Source of the DNA: Roseobacter insulae
Lineage (GTDB): Bacteria > Pseudomonadota > Alphaproteobacteria > Rhodobacterales > Rhodobacteraceae
Assembly: GCF_019375555.1 (NCBI RefSeq)
Contig: NZ_JAHXDN010000002.1
Location: 434,001 to 498,000, forward strand
Reading direction: 5' to 3'
DNA length: 64,000 nucleotides
The notes under the pieces are model-generated. The model saw only the letters and a list, made by a program, of their open reading frames with translations, searched no databases and was not told the DNA's origin. Position 1 is the first letter of the stretch. Every line of letters begins with the position of its first letter. This document shows positions 19,292 to 45,539 of this stretch, in pieces. Position numbers and translations under genes: made by a program.

Positions 19292-20068
19292 ATGAAAAAA
19301 CCAAAGTGGGTGGTGCAGAAAGAACAGGGCAAAAAAGCCCAGACCCGCGAAACCCTGTGGCTGTTCGGGTTGCACGCGGTGCGCGATGCGCTGTCGAATC
19401 CGCGCCGTGAAAAGCTGCGGCTGATCGTGACGCTGAATGCGCAGAACAAGCTCGCGGATGCCATAGCAGCAGCGGGCATCACGCCGGAAGTTGTGGACCC
19501 CAGAAAGTTCAACGCGCCACTGGATCCCGGATCGGTGCATCAGGGGGCGGCGCTCGAAGTGAAGCCGCTGGAGTGGGGCCGTCTGGAAGATGTCTGCATC
19601 GGACCGGCTTCGCCGCGGGTTATCTTGCTGGACCGGGTGACCGACCCGCACAACGTGGGAGCGATCCTGCGCTCTGCCGAAGTGCTTGGTGCGTCCGCGG
19701 TGATTGGCACGCGGCATCATTCCGCCCCGGAAACCGGCGCGCTTGCCAAGACGGCAAGCGGCGCCCTGGAACGGCAGCCTTACCTGCGGGTGCGCAACCT
19801 CGCGGATGCCATCCGGGCGCTGCAGGACATGGGGTATCTGGTGCTGGGGCTCGATGGTGAGGCGACGCAGTCAATCGACGCCGCGATGGAGGGCAAGCGC
19901 ACACGTCCCGTGGCGCTGGTGCTGGGCGCGGAAGGACCGGGGTTACGCGAAAAAACCAAGGAAACCGTGGATGCGCTGGTGCGTATTGACGCGGCAGGCC
20001 GGTTTGGCTCGCTCAACGTCTCAAATGCCGCCGCAATTGCCCTATATGCTACCAGAGCGTCAGGCTAG
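19292..20068 (+). CDS. rlmB: 23S rRNA (guanosine-2'-O)-methyltransferase RlmB (TrmH/SpoU family)
   Basis: The 258-residue protein has an N-terminal substrate-binding domain (LWLFGLHAVRDALSNP) and a C-terminal SPOUT domain with its three motifs: DRVTDPHNVGAILRSAE, LVLGAEGPGLRE and GSLNVSNAAAIALY. RlmB methylates the 2'-OH of G2251 in 23S rRNA; a tRNA-modifying TrmH role is the alternative. The basic N-terminal extension (MKKPKWVVQKEQGKKAQ) suits RNA binding. The gene is divergent from tRNA-Tyr and is followed 25 bp later by a zinc-ribbon gene, probably in the same transcript. Confidence 0.9.
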   Translation: MKKPKWVVQKEQGKKAQTRETLWLFGLHAVRDALSNPRREKLRLIVTLNAQNKLADAIAAAGITPEVVDPRKFNAPLDPGSVHQGAALEVKPLEWGRLEDVCIGPASPRVILLDRVTDPHNVGAILRSAEVLGASAVIGTRHHSAPETGALAKTASGALERQPYLRVRNLADAIRALQDMGYLVLGLDGEATQSIDAAMEGKRTRPVALVLGAEGPGLREKTKETVDALVRIDAAGRFGSLNVSNAAAIALYATRASG

Positions 20069-20491: not shown

Positions 20492-20614
20492 TTACTTACG
20501 TTTCATATCGATGGGCCCGGAACGCTCGTCGATTTTCAAGACTGTCCCTCGTTCCGTACCTTTGTGCGCCCCGTGCTTCTTAGCATTGGGCGCTCTTTTT
20601 TTCCGTGATGACAT
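20492..20614 (-). CDS. Possible 40-residue basic protein
   Basis: An uninterrupted frame on the minus strand begins MSSRKKRAPNAKKHGAHKG, continues with VLKIDERSGPIDM and ends KRK. The chain is very basic and reads like a small RNA- or ribosome-associated protein, but I do not recognise a family. Against it, no Shine-Dalgarno sequence is visible, and the first third is antisense to a good terminator for the plus strand, which alone would explain the lysine-rich start. Treat as a candidate only. Confidence 0.25.
   Translation of the reverse strand: MSSRKKRAPNAKKHGAHKGTERGTVLKIDERSGPIDMKRK
20566..20602 (+). terminator. Rho-independent terminator after rlmB/zinc-ribbon unit
   Basis: Outer stem GCGCCC (20566-20571) pairs with GGGCGC (20588-20593), inner stem TGCT (20574-20577) pairs with AGCA (20582-20585) around a 4-base loop, and TCTTTTTTT follows. 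It lies about 160 bp beyond the last plus-strand stop, leaving a long 3' UTR. Confidence 0.8.
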
Positions 20615-20631: not shown

Positions 20632-21099
20632 ATGACGTATGCAGATGCTTTTCTGAAAGACGTGCTGACCAAAACGCGCCGGATCGCGGTCGTCGGTGTG
20701 TCCATGAACCCGGTGCGGCCCAGTTACTACGTCGCGCGGTATCTGACGCTCAAGGGGTATGAAGTTGTCCCCGTAAACCCCGGTCATGTGGGCAAGGTTC
20801 TCTTTGGGCAAACCGTGGTGAGCAGTCTGAAGGAGATTGCCGGGGAGGTGGACATGGTCGACATTTTTCGACGCTCGGACGCAGTGCCCGCGATTGTCGA
20901 GGAAGCCCTGGCGGTGTTCCCAAACCTGCAAACGATCTGGATGCAGATAGGTGTACAACATCCCGAGGCCGCGGCCATGGCCGAAGCGCGCGGCGTGACG
21001 GTCATTCAGAACCGCTGTCCCAAGATCGAGTATCAGCGGCTGTTCGGCGAGTTGCGGATGGGCGGATTTGCCACCGGGGTCATTTCGTCGAAGCTATGA
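20632..21099 (+). CDS. CoA-binding domain protein (YccU family)
   Basis: The 155-residue protein is a single Rossmann-type CoA-binding domain: RRIAVVGVSMNPVRPSYYVARYL at the N-terminus, GYEVVPVNPGHVG, then VDMVDIFRRSDAVPAIVEEAL and WMQIGVQHPEAAAMAEARGV. This is the stand-alone YccU/succinyl-CoA-ligase-like family, which binds CoA or acyl-CoA; its role is unsettled. The final segment NRCPKIEYQRLF is typical. It converges on hisE with only seven bases between stops. Confidence 0.85.
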   Translation: MTYADAFLKDVLTKTRRIAVVGVSMNPVRPSYYVARYLTLKGYEVVPVNPGHVGKVLFGQTVVSSLKEIAGEVDMVDIFRRSDAVPAIVEEALAVFPNLQTIWMQIGVQHPEAAAMAEARGVTVIQNRCPKIEYQRLFGELRMGGFATGVISSKL

Positions 21100-44710: not shown

Positions 44711-44755
44711 TAACCAAAAATCCCTTGCTGTACCATGATTTCCCACGTTATACCT
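44711..44755 (-). promoter_or_regulatory. MraZ-box array over the dcw promoter
   Basis: Read on the minus strand, five pentamers recur with an exact 10-bp period: GGTTA (44715-44711), AGGGA (44725-44721), TGGTA (44735-44731), TGGGA (44745-44741) and AGGTA (44755-44751). MraZ is known to bind TGGGN repeats with 5-bp spacers upstream of its own gene. The boxes cover both promoter elements, which fits repression. Confidence 0.65.
44725..44753 (+). promoter_or_regulatory. Candidate sigma-70 promoter of the dcw cluster
   Basis: TTGCTG (44725-44730) and TTATAC (44748-44753) are separated by 17 bp. Transcription would start near 44760, leaving a leader of about 275 nt before mraZ. Confidence 0.65.
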
Positions 44756-44759
44756 TATG

Positions 44760-44969
44760 ACATCAGATGAGAACGAGCCGGGGCACCAAACGACCCCACG
44801 CAAAACAAAAAACTCTAGCAGGTTTCATACAGGCACCTCGCTTTCAGCTGACCAAGAGATCCGGCGCGCGAGCGAGCAGACATCCCCCCAGGTGGCGCGC
44901 GCAGCTGGACTTCCCCGCAGATGCGGGACGAGGGCGGCGGGTTGATCAGTGGCAGCAGATCAACCCGCC
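44760..44969 (+). ncRNA. UpsM-like sRNA from the mraZ 5' leader
   Basis: In Rhodobacter sphaeroides the dcw cluster has an unusually long leader from which the abundant sRNA UpsM (about 200 nt) arises by partial termination; it is targeted by the sRNA StsR. Here the predicted start near 44760 and a 12-bp perfect hairpin (44936-44947 with 44958-44969) give about 210 nt. The primary sequence outside these elements was not compared, and the hairpin lacks a good T run. Homology is by position, length and structure. Confidence 0.55.
44936..44969 (+). terminator. Strong hairpin in the mraZ leader
   Basis: GGCGGGTTGATC (44936-44947) pairs perfectly with GATCAACCCGCC (44958-44969) around a 10-base loop. 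It is followed by GTTTCC rather than a T tract, so it may terminate only partly or define an sRNA 3' end. Confidence 0.55.
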
Positions 44970-45035
44970 GTTTCCATTTCACGACAGGGGGATAGGCGTC
45001 AACCTCAGCGGGGCGCGGAAGATTGGGATAAGGCA

Positions 45036-45539
45036 GTGAGCCGCAGGTTCAGAGGCGAAAGCCATCACAAGGTCGATGCAAAGGGGCGGGTCTCTATCCC
45101 AGCCTCTTTTCGGCGTGTGATCGAGGCCGCTGATCCCAACTGGACCTCGGGCGACGCCCCCGAACTGGTTATCGTCTACGGCGATCACCGCCGCAATTAT
45201 CTTGAATGCTATACAATGGAAGCGATCAACGAGGTTGACGACAAGATCGACGCGCTGCCCCGGGGGTCGATGGAGCGAAAGATGCTCCAGCGTCTTTTCC
45301 ACGGGCAATCCTTTCCAACCTCGGTGGATGAGACCGGGCGCCTGGTGCTGCCGGCCAAGCTGCGGCAGAAGATCGGTCTGGACAAGGAAGCGTTTTTCAT
45401 TGCCGCCGGTGACACTTTCCAGATCTGGCAACCGGAAACCTACGATGCCGAGGAAAACGCCAGGACAGAAGCGTGGCTGGATGAGTTGCCGGATGATTTT
45501 GACCCGCTGGTCTTTCTGGATGGTAAGCAAGGGGAGTAA
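45036..45539 (+). CDS. mraZ: Transcriptional regulator MraZ
   Basis: The 167-residue protein has two AbrB-like MraZ domains, each with its DEKGRV-like signature: HKVDAKGRVSIPASFRR near residue 10 and TSVDETGRLVLPAKLRQKIGL near 90. MraZ forms a ring and represses its own promoter and the dcw operon. The start is GTG at 45036, preceded by AAGG; a longer in-frame reading enters the leader hairpin. It ends three bases before rsmH. Confidence 0.95.
   Translation: MSRRFRGESHHKVDAKGRVSIPASFRRVIEAADPNWTSGDAPELVIVYGDHRRNYLECYTMEAINEVDDKIDALPRGSMERKMLQRLFHGQSFPTSVDETGRLVLPAKLRQKIGLDKEAFFIAAGDTFQIWQPETYDAEENARTEAWLDELPDDFDPLVFLDGKQGE

Follow-up and report, generated by a model that had tools for sequence, protein, structure and literature searches.

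A predicted UpsM-type small RNA in the mraZ leader and a StsR orthologue within one 64-kb window of Roseobacter insulae

In R. sphaeroides, mraZ is preceded by a leader of 268 nt which contains a terminator and gives rise to a 206-nt sRNA named UpsM (RSs0682), from which RNase E generates a product of 130 nt (Weber 2016, PMC5089854), with read-through into the dcw cluster being estimated at approximately 1 in 100 (PMC5089854). UpsM is described as a stable RNA and as the most abundant Hfq-bound sRNA of this bacterium, its cleavage by RNase E being conditional, and weak translation from an ORF within the leader has also been reported (PMC5089854). The long mraZ leader with its terminator represents a feature of the Rhodobacteraceae, in which the hairpins R2 to R4 are conserved and R1 is hardly so; a riboswitch was raised for R. 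sphaeroides in the same work, where refolding of R2 to R4 applies to that species only and not to the family consensus (Weber 2016, PMC5089854). The second component of the system is StsR (RSs0827), an sRNA which R. sphaeroides produces in stationary phase (PMC8307010, PMC11354728) and the transcription of which under stress depends on RpoHI/RpoHII. StsR pairs with UpsM and with the dcw leader and opens an RNase E site (PMC8307010, PMC11354728, PMC8625941).

Considering that this type of leader has been published for the Rhodobacteraceae since 2016 (Weber 2016, PMC5089854), the idea of a long, terminator-bearing mraZ leader in the present lineage is less new than the preliminary description of this DNA had implied. 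In the literature compared, to which the main StsR study (Grutzner 2021) does not belong, the UpsM/StsR circuit is worked out for R. sphaeroides only, open-access work on StsR outside that species was not identified, and two parts of the present analysis have no published counterpart that was identified, these being the StsR orthologue in this genome and the complementarity seen across the family at the start of mraZ. A more distant parallel is provided by SreA/SreB of Listeria, where premature termination in a leader likewise yields a trans-acting RNA (PMC5089854). SreA/SreB are derived from riboswitches, whereas the leader analysed here has no known ligand, and the likeness concerns the mode of action, no homology being claimed.

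In the current work, the window denotes the whole stretch of DNA that was analysed (64 kb, contig positions 434001-498000 of a 4.88-Mb genome), and coordinates are given with respect to it. The mraZ gene was identified with NF001476 (231.9 bits, the cut-off being 162) as well as PF02381, and the region at its 5' side contains the following features:

44725-44754, plus strand: predicted leader promoter, read from the sequence (TTGCTG at 44725-44730, 18 nt, TATACC at 44749-44754)
44763-44975, plus strand: predicted UpsM orthologue of ~213 nt, presumed to arise when transcription of the mraZ leader terminates prematurely (C. johrii alignment and R2-R4 homology)
44841/44842, plus strand: position matching the RNase E cut known from R. 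sphaeroides (..CGC^UUUCA..), where cleavage would yield a 3' fragment of ~134 nt (published 130-nt product counted in C. johrii)
44860-44909, plus strand: R2 hairpin with a near-invariant C-rich loop, ACAUCCCCCCAGG (44880-44892); in 31 sequences, pairing holds in 99.6% of cells and 2 pairs have both bases changed
44914-44927, plus strand: R3 hairpin, from folding; 97.5% of cells paired
44934-44975, plus strand: R4 terminator hairpin (12-bp core 44936-44969) with a weak U-tract; 7 of 16 helix pairs changed on both sides
45036-45539, plus strand: mraZ, the gene with which the dcw cluster begins (NF001476, PF02381), start codon GTG at 45036

The perfect 12-bp hairpin was found at 44936-44969, exactly where the preliminary description had placed it, and consists of the stem strands GGCGGGTTGATC (44936-44947) and GATCAACCCGCC (44958-44969) enclosing the 10-nt loop AGTGGCAGCA (44948-44957), with the stem being lengthened by the pairs C44935-G44970 and G44934-T44971. 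The transcript ends were estimated by measuring off the lengths published for R. sphaeroides along the sequence of C. johrii, which stands in for strain 2.4.1, and by transferring the resulting positions through alignment. By this procedure the start site would correspond to ~44763, so that the leader would measure ~273 nt and the RNA, with its end near 44975, ~213 nt (published 268/206 nt); a leader of ~275 nt and an RNA of ~210 nt had been proposed beforehand. The start near 44760 put forward there is plausible in view of the elements TTGCTG and TATACC. The equivalents of the start site, the cut site and the 3' end are all located on conserved sequence, and GCAGGTTTCATACAGGCACC occurs just 5' of the RNase E-equivalent position in 76 of 78 leaders (allowing up to 3 edits). 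The segment 44760-44985 (226 nt) is predicted to fold at -87 kcal/mol (z = -3.57), a stability which was reached by none of 200 shuffled sequences.

Generic searches returned little at these positions. The terminator pattern scan was silent at the R4 hairpin because the U-tract, GUUUCCAUUU, is broken and too weak, and the sigma-70 scan was silent at the leader promoter, the -10 element of which is imperfect; its sole promoter-like match was on the opposite strand and at chance level. The spacer of the leader promoter (zone 44725-44759) contains C-rich direct repeats of the CCCAT type with 10-nt spacing, the copy in this genome appearing degenerate, and MraZ-type repeats are present in the promoter zone of 37 of 78 family leaders (0.2 expected). 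Such repeats are expected for MraZ autoregulation, and we take their resemblance to be one to MraZ operator repeats. A 90-codon ORF (44767-45039) spans the entire leader and terminator, with its TGA overlapping the GTG of mraZ; a conserved leader peptide was considered and is unsupported, as just 23 of 77 leaders keep this frame open across the terminator.

The preliminary description had interpreted this region as an UpsM-like leader and had proposed a covariance comparison with UpsM together with a genome search for StsR. Among 30 mraZ loci of the family (L003-L032), the leader core is present in 27; the three without it (L022, L026 and L031) were excluded from the alignment, and L026 was dropped again for the set of paired RNAs. 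The mraZ leaders of Cereibacter changlensis, Luteovulum azotoformans and C. johrii align with the leader of this genome. In the resulting R2-R4 alignment of 31 sequences, standard pairs occupy 98.8% of the pair cells and 10 pairs are changed on both sides, so that the hairpins covary; these levels were attained by none of 500 shuffles, and controls in which the pairing was slid remained below 40%. The present leader matches the R2-R4 model with 158.3 bits, this model having been built with the leader included, and a profile derived from the 30 other sequences recovers 44841-44983 at E=7e-41, its sole further match being the palindrome on the opposite strand (E=0.003). Two attributes taken as diagnostic of UpsM, an intrinsic-type terminator hairpin in a long leader directly 5' of mraZ and the conserved R2, R3 and R4 structure, are thus both present, and the mraZ leader is assigned, from sequence and structural homology, as an orthologue of R. 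sphaeroides UpsM, in agreement with the preliminary reading. It resembles UpsM with respect to its place before mraZ, its predicted lengths (~273/213 versus 268/206 nt), its three hairpins and the position of the RNase E site, and differs in its 5' part (R1), which has diverged, as is usual in the family (PMC5089854). No Rfam family was matched at its gathering score by the leader or by the StsR locus, the sub-threshold matches being HCV_SL588 for the leader (E=0.05, minus strand) and suhB/mmgR (E=0.28) and SNORD88 (E=0.44) for StsR. Membership of StsR in the suhB/mmgR family was rejected at 16.9 bits, with a cut-off of 41.

The search for StsR led to the same window, a location which had gone unnoticed in the preliminary description: stsR lies ~24,000 bases upstream of the leader on the same strand. 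The published 20-mer StsR probe, which has an exact complement in Cereibacter changlensis, Luteovulum azotoformans and C. johrii, finds no match within 3 mismatches in this genome because the bases flanking the core differ (AGACUG versus UUCACUG). The gene was instead located through synteny, by identifying the orthologue of the CoA-binding gene and then the RNA gene upstream of it, which yielded the following features:

19292-20068, plus strand: rlmB, upstream neighbour of StsR (TIGR00186, 181.6 bits)
20513-20602, plus strand: StsR orthologue, ends approximate (match to model R1 at 20502-20609, 70.7 bits, E=6.8e-20)
20541-20555, plus strand: StsR core ACTGTCCCTCGTTCC, single-stranded seed candidate (conservation in 79 sequences)
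20566-20602, plus strand: StsR intrinsic terminator, a GC stem followed by a U-tract (sequence and structure)
20632-21099, plus strand: gene for a CoA-binding protein, immediately 3' of StsR (PF13380, 129.3 bits; orthologue matched in the family survey)

A profile built from 31 other StsR sequences, with the window excluded, has its sole match in the window at 20510-20604 (E=9.3e-15). Like the StsR of R. sphaeroides, the RNA possesses the core ACUGUCCCUCGUUCCG, a 5' hairpin presenting GGAAC in its loop, and an intrinsic terminator. As in C. johrii, rlmB is located upstream and the CoA-binding gene downstream, and hisE and hisF belong to the same cluster; we take the C. johrii genes to be his genes, hisF included, from inspection of their translations by eye. 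A small ORF between rlmB and StsR distinguishes the present locus. Homology to a probe-matched RNA and a shared genomic neighbourhood, the two grounds on which StsR was to be recognised, are thus both found. Across 79 StsR sequences, 12 of the 15 core positions are identical in all and the remaining 3 in 78, an invariance which is partly a selection effect since the sequences were chosen by a core match with up to 2 mismatches. GGAAC precedes the core in every one of the 79, and in 78% of StsR sequences the core is flanked by a stem of 5 or more pairs, versus 15% with shuffled flanks. Within 20517-20556, the GGAAC of the first-hairpin loop and the GUUCC with which the core ends are complementary, a pairing that was also selected by RNAalifold, so that a pseudoknot or a switch between the 5' hairpin and the seed is possible.

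Both RNAs are widely distributed within the family. R2-R4 was detected in 177 of 198 family genomes (28 of which contributed sequences to the model) and StsR in 171 of 198 (29 of which did so), and at 28 of the 29 loci that were inspected the StsR core adjoins the CoA-binding gene, the exception (L068) having no core. When 289 Alphaproteobacteria were surveyed, four genomes of the same family gave strong matches with both models; among the other 285 none was strong, marginal matches amounting to 3 for model R2 (leader; E at least 2.6e-4) and 18 for model R1 (StsR; E at least 2.4e-5). These counts are to be read with the stricter filters applied to surveys of more than 40 genomes, at which weak matches are lost, and with the composition of both models, which include the window and many of the surveyed genomes; the test on the window was for its part repeated with the window left out, as given above. 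Nine genomes are devoid of both RNAs, which exceeds chance (Fisher p = 0.0004, uncorrected for relatedness or assembly gaps).

Complementarity between the two RNAs was examined in the 76 genomes from which both were obtained, 3 of these, in which no mraZ start motif was recognised, being dropped from the segment-shuffle test; the start-motif counts refer to 76 leaders with that motif, 3 of them having no StsR sequence. Leaders are related, so the counts are not independent, and one lineage is counted twice, G091 and G198 having identical leaders and StsR cores. The near-invariant core ACUGUCCCUCGUUCC has its complements in GGRCAGUG at the start of mraZ and in the linker between R3 and the terminator. 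Between terminator and start, GGRCAGTG, which complements the core and its usual flanking C, is present in 32 of 76 leaders (0.3 expected), its GTG usually being the predicted start codon of mraZ, and GGGRCAG in 44 of 76 (7.4 expected); neither motif was found in an equal length of coding sequence from the 76 leaders. In a decoy test on 75 leaders (every second one being used for the decoys, p-values uncorrected for 8 segments), the StsR core was equalled by 1 of 300 decoy seeds in the post-terminator segment, by 1 in the start segment and by 3 in the R3-linker, as opposed to 38 at the 5' end and 230 in the coding segment. The UpsM 5' end as a family-wide StsR site is favoured by segment shuffles (24 of 73 at p <= 0.05) but not by decoys. 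In the linker, a 10-nt complement of the core including one G-U pair, GGGACGAGGG, is found in 42 of 75 leaders; in Cereibacter it is replaced by GGGACAG, for which the pairing partner is the adjacent portion of the core, and mraZ is preceded there by the start-proximal GGACAGTGAAGG.

In the present genome two candidate sites on the leader stand out:

44771-44777, plus strand: GAACGAG near the UpsM 5' end, a 7-nt perfect complement of CUCGUUC in StsR (p = 0.06 for this genome when duplexes of the 5' segment were shuffled)
44921-44934, plus strand: strongest predicted StsR-pairing site, 14 nt in the 3' arm of R3 and the linker, AUGCGGGACGAGGG (duplex -23.5 kcal/mol)

Neither GGRCAGUG at the start codon nor GGGRCAG is present in this leader, and no single leader segment reaches p = 0.05 for StsR complementarity in its segment shuffles. 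Once the costs of opening are included, the site at 44921-44934 is weak, at -5.8 kcal/mol for the complete leader and -1.9 for the RNA that ends at the terminator. The corresponding values for C. johrii are -18.8 and -11.5, its strongest site being located just 5' of mraZ (-18.8), and the StsR complement at the C. johrii UpsM 5' end, GGGACAGUGAA, is absent here, only GAACGAG being left. StsR contacts are thus predicted by these duplex models to be weaker or different here than in Cereibacter.

Taken with the StsR orthologue in the window, the UpsM homology of the leader supports its interpretation as UpsM/StsR-type, and the circuit of R. sphaeroides, comprising termination, read-through and StsR-directed RNase E cleavage, is probably carried by this genome. 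This reading builds on what was observed: both RNAs have homologues, the hairpins covary, the StsR neighbourhood is syntenic, the two RNAs are present throughout much of the family and tend to co-occur, and complementarity between them is enriched there. That the hairpin should instead be an ordinary intergenic inverted repeat, or the terminator of an upstream transcript, with no sRNA function, would fit its poor U-tract and its being missed by generic scans; this is extremely improbable given that its position, loop and compensatory pattern are the same in family genomes and that its presence is restricted to the family. A purely cis-acting attenuator or riboswitch, in which the C-rich R2 loop would sense a ligand, a protein or the state of the ribosome and choose between termination at R4 and read-through, the short RNA being a by-product and StsR secondary, draws on the conservation of this loop and its flanks beyond what pairing needs and on the riboswitch raised for R. 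sphaeroides. It is nonetheless considered unlikely: the refolding belongs to that species and not to the family consensus (PMC5089854), StsR co-occurs with the leader, and a switch partner for the C6 loop was not recognised in the read-through RNA, pairing with the post-terminator G-run (here 44986-44990) having been rejected since 39 of 76 leaders contain GGGGG downstream, versus 35.8 in dinucleotide shuffles.

The enriched motif over the start codon, the decoy results for the post-terminator and start segments and the best C. johrii site just before mraZ all point to a further possibility, namely that StsR acts mainly by pairing at the mraZ translation start to block ribosomes, UpsM being chiefly a sponge for StsR. 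This possibility is the less probable one, as the motif is missing from the present leader and could instead serve translation or MraZ binding, and the co-variation of StsR and mraZ beside the core, when own and swapped partners were compared, is not significant (n = 43, p = 0.07). A related proposal, put forward tentatively and rather doubtful as a whole, would hold for the Rhodobacteraceae at large: the StsR core would be kept mainly for pairing with GGGACAGUG over the mraZ start codon and with GGGACGAGGG in the linker before the UpsM terminator, StsR would act as a brake under stress, silencing the translation of mraZ and resetting the terminator, UpsM would be a sponge that sets the threshold, and the lineage examined here would have lost the start contact and kept the linker contact.

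Under the preferred reading, that of a circuit as in R. sphaeroides, the promoter ~273 nt 5' of mraZ would drive the leader, and most polymerases would halt at the R4 hairpin with release of the ~213-nt sRNA, a minority, aided by the poor U-tract, reading through into mraZ and the remaining dcw genes. The stsR gene, 24 kb upstream on the same strand, would presumably be transcribed from an RpoH-type promoter, and StsR would accumulate under stress or in stationary phase; two RpoH-like sigma factors are present in the genome (368.8 bits, above the cut-off, and 268.2 bits, below it). The core of StsR would then pair with the linker between R3 and the terminator (44921-44934 in this leader) and, in many related bacteria, also with the sequence at the mraZ start codon; this pairing may reshape the leader, open the RNase E site at ~44841/44842 and lower dcw output. 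By analogy with R. sphaeroides, we infer that the termination, abundance, RpoH-control, Hfq and RNase E steps would apply here, and we can only infer the StsR contact site in this species.

With an UpsM-like leader and an upstream stsR, the R. sphaeroides circuit appears to be present, at least in parts, across the family. The prevalence of StsR, its CoA-binding neighbour and its association with UpsM suggest that control of cell division by one sRNA acting on another is widespread in the Rhodobacteraceae. Concrete candidate contact sites for mutation are now available, and pairing at the start codon, if true, would explain the near-unchanging StsR core.

Two minor observations concern the RNAs themselves. 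The R2 loop ACAUCCCCCCAGG is nearly invariant across the 31 sequences with no structural reason being found, and a protein or RNA partner is possible. Several genomes, among them G075, G196 and G015, contain 2 or 3 matches each to the StsR model, which are possibly StsR paralogues.
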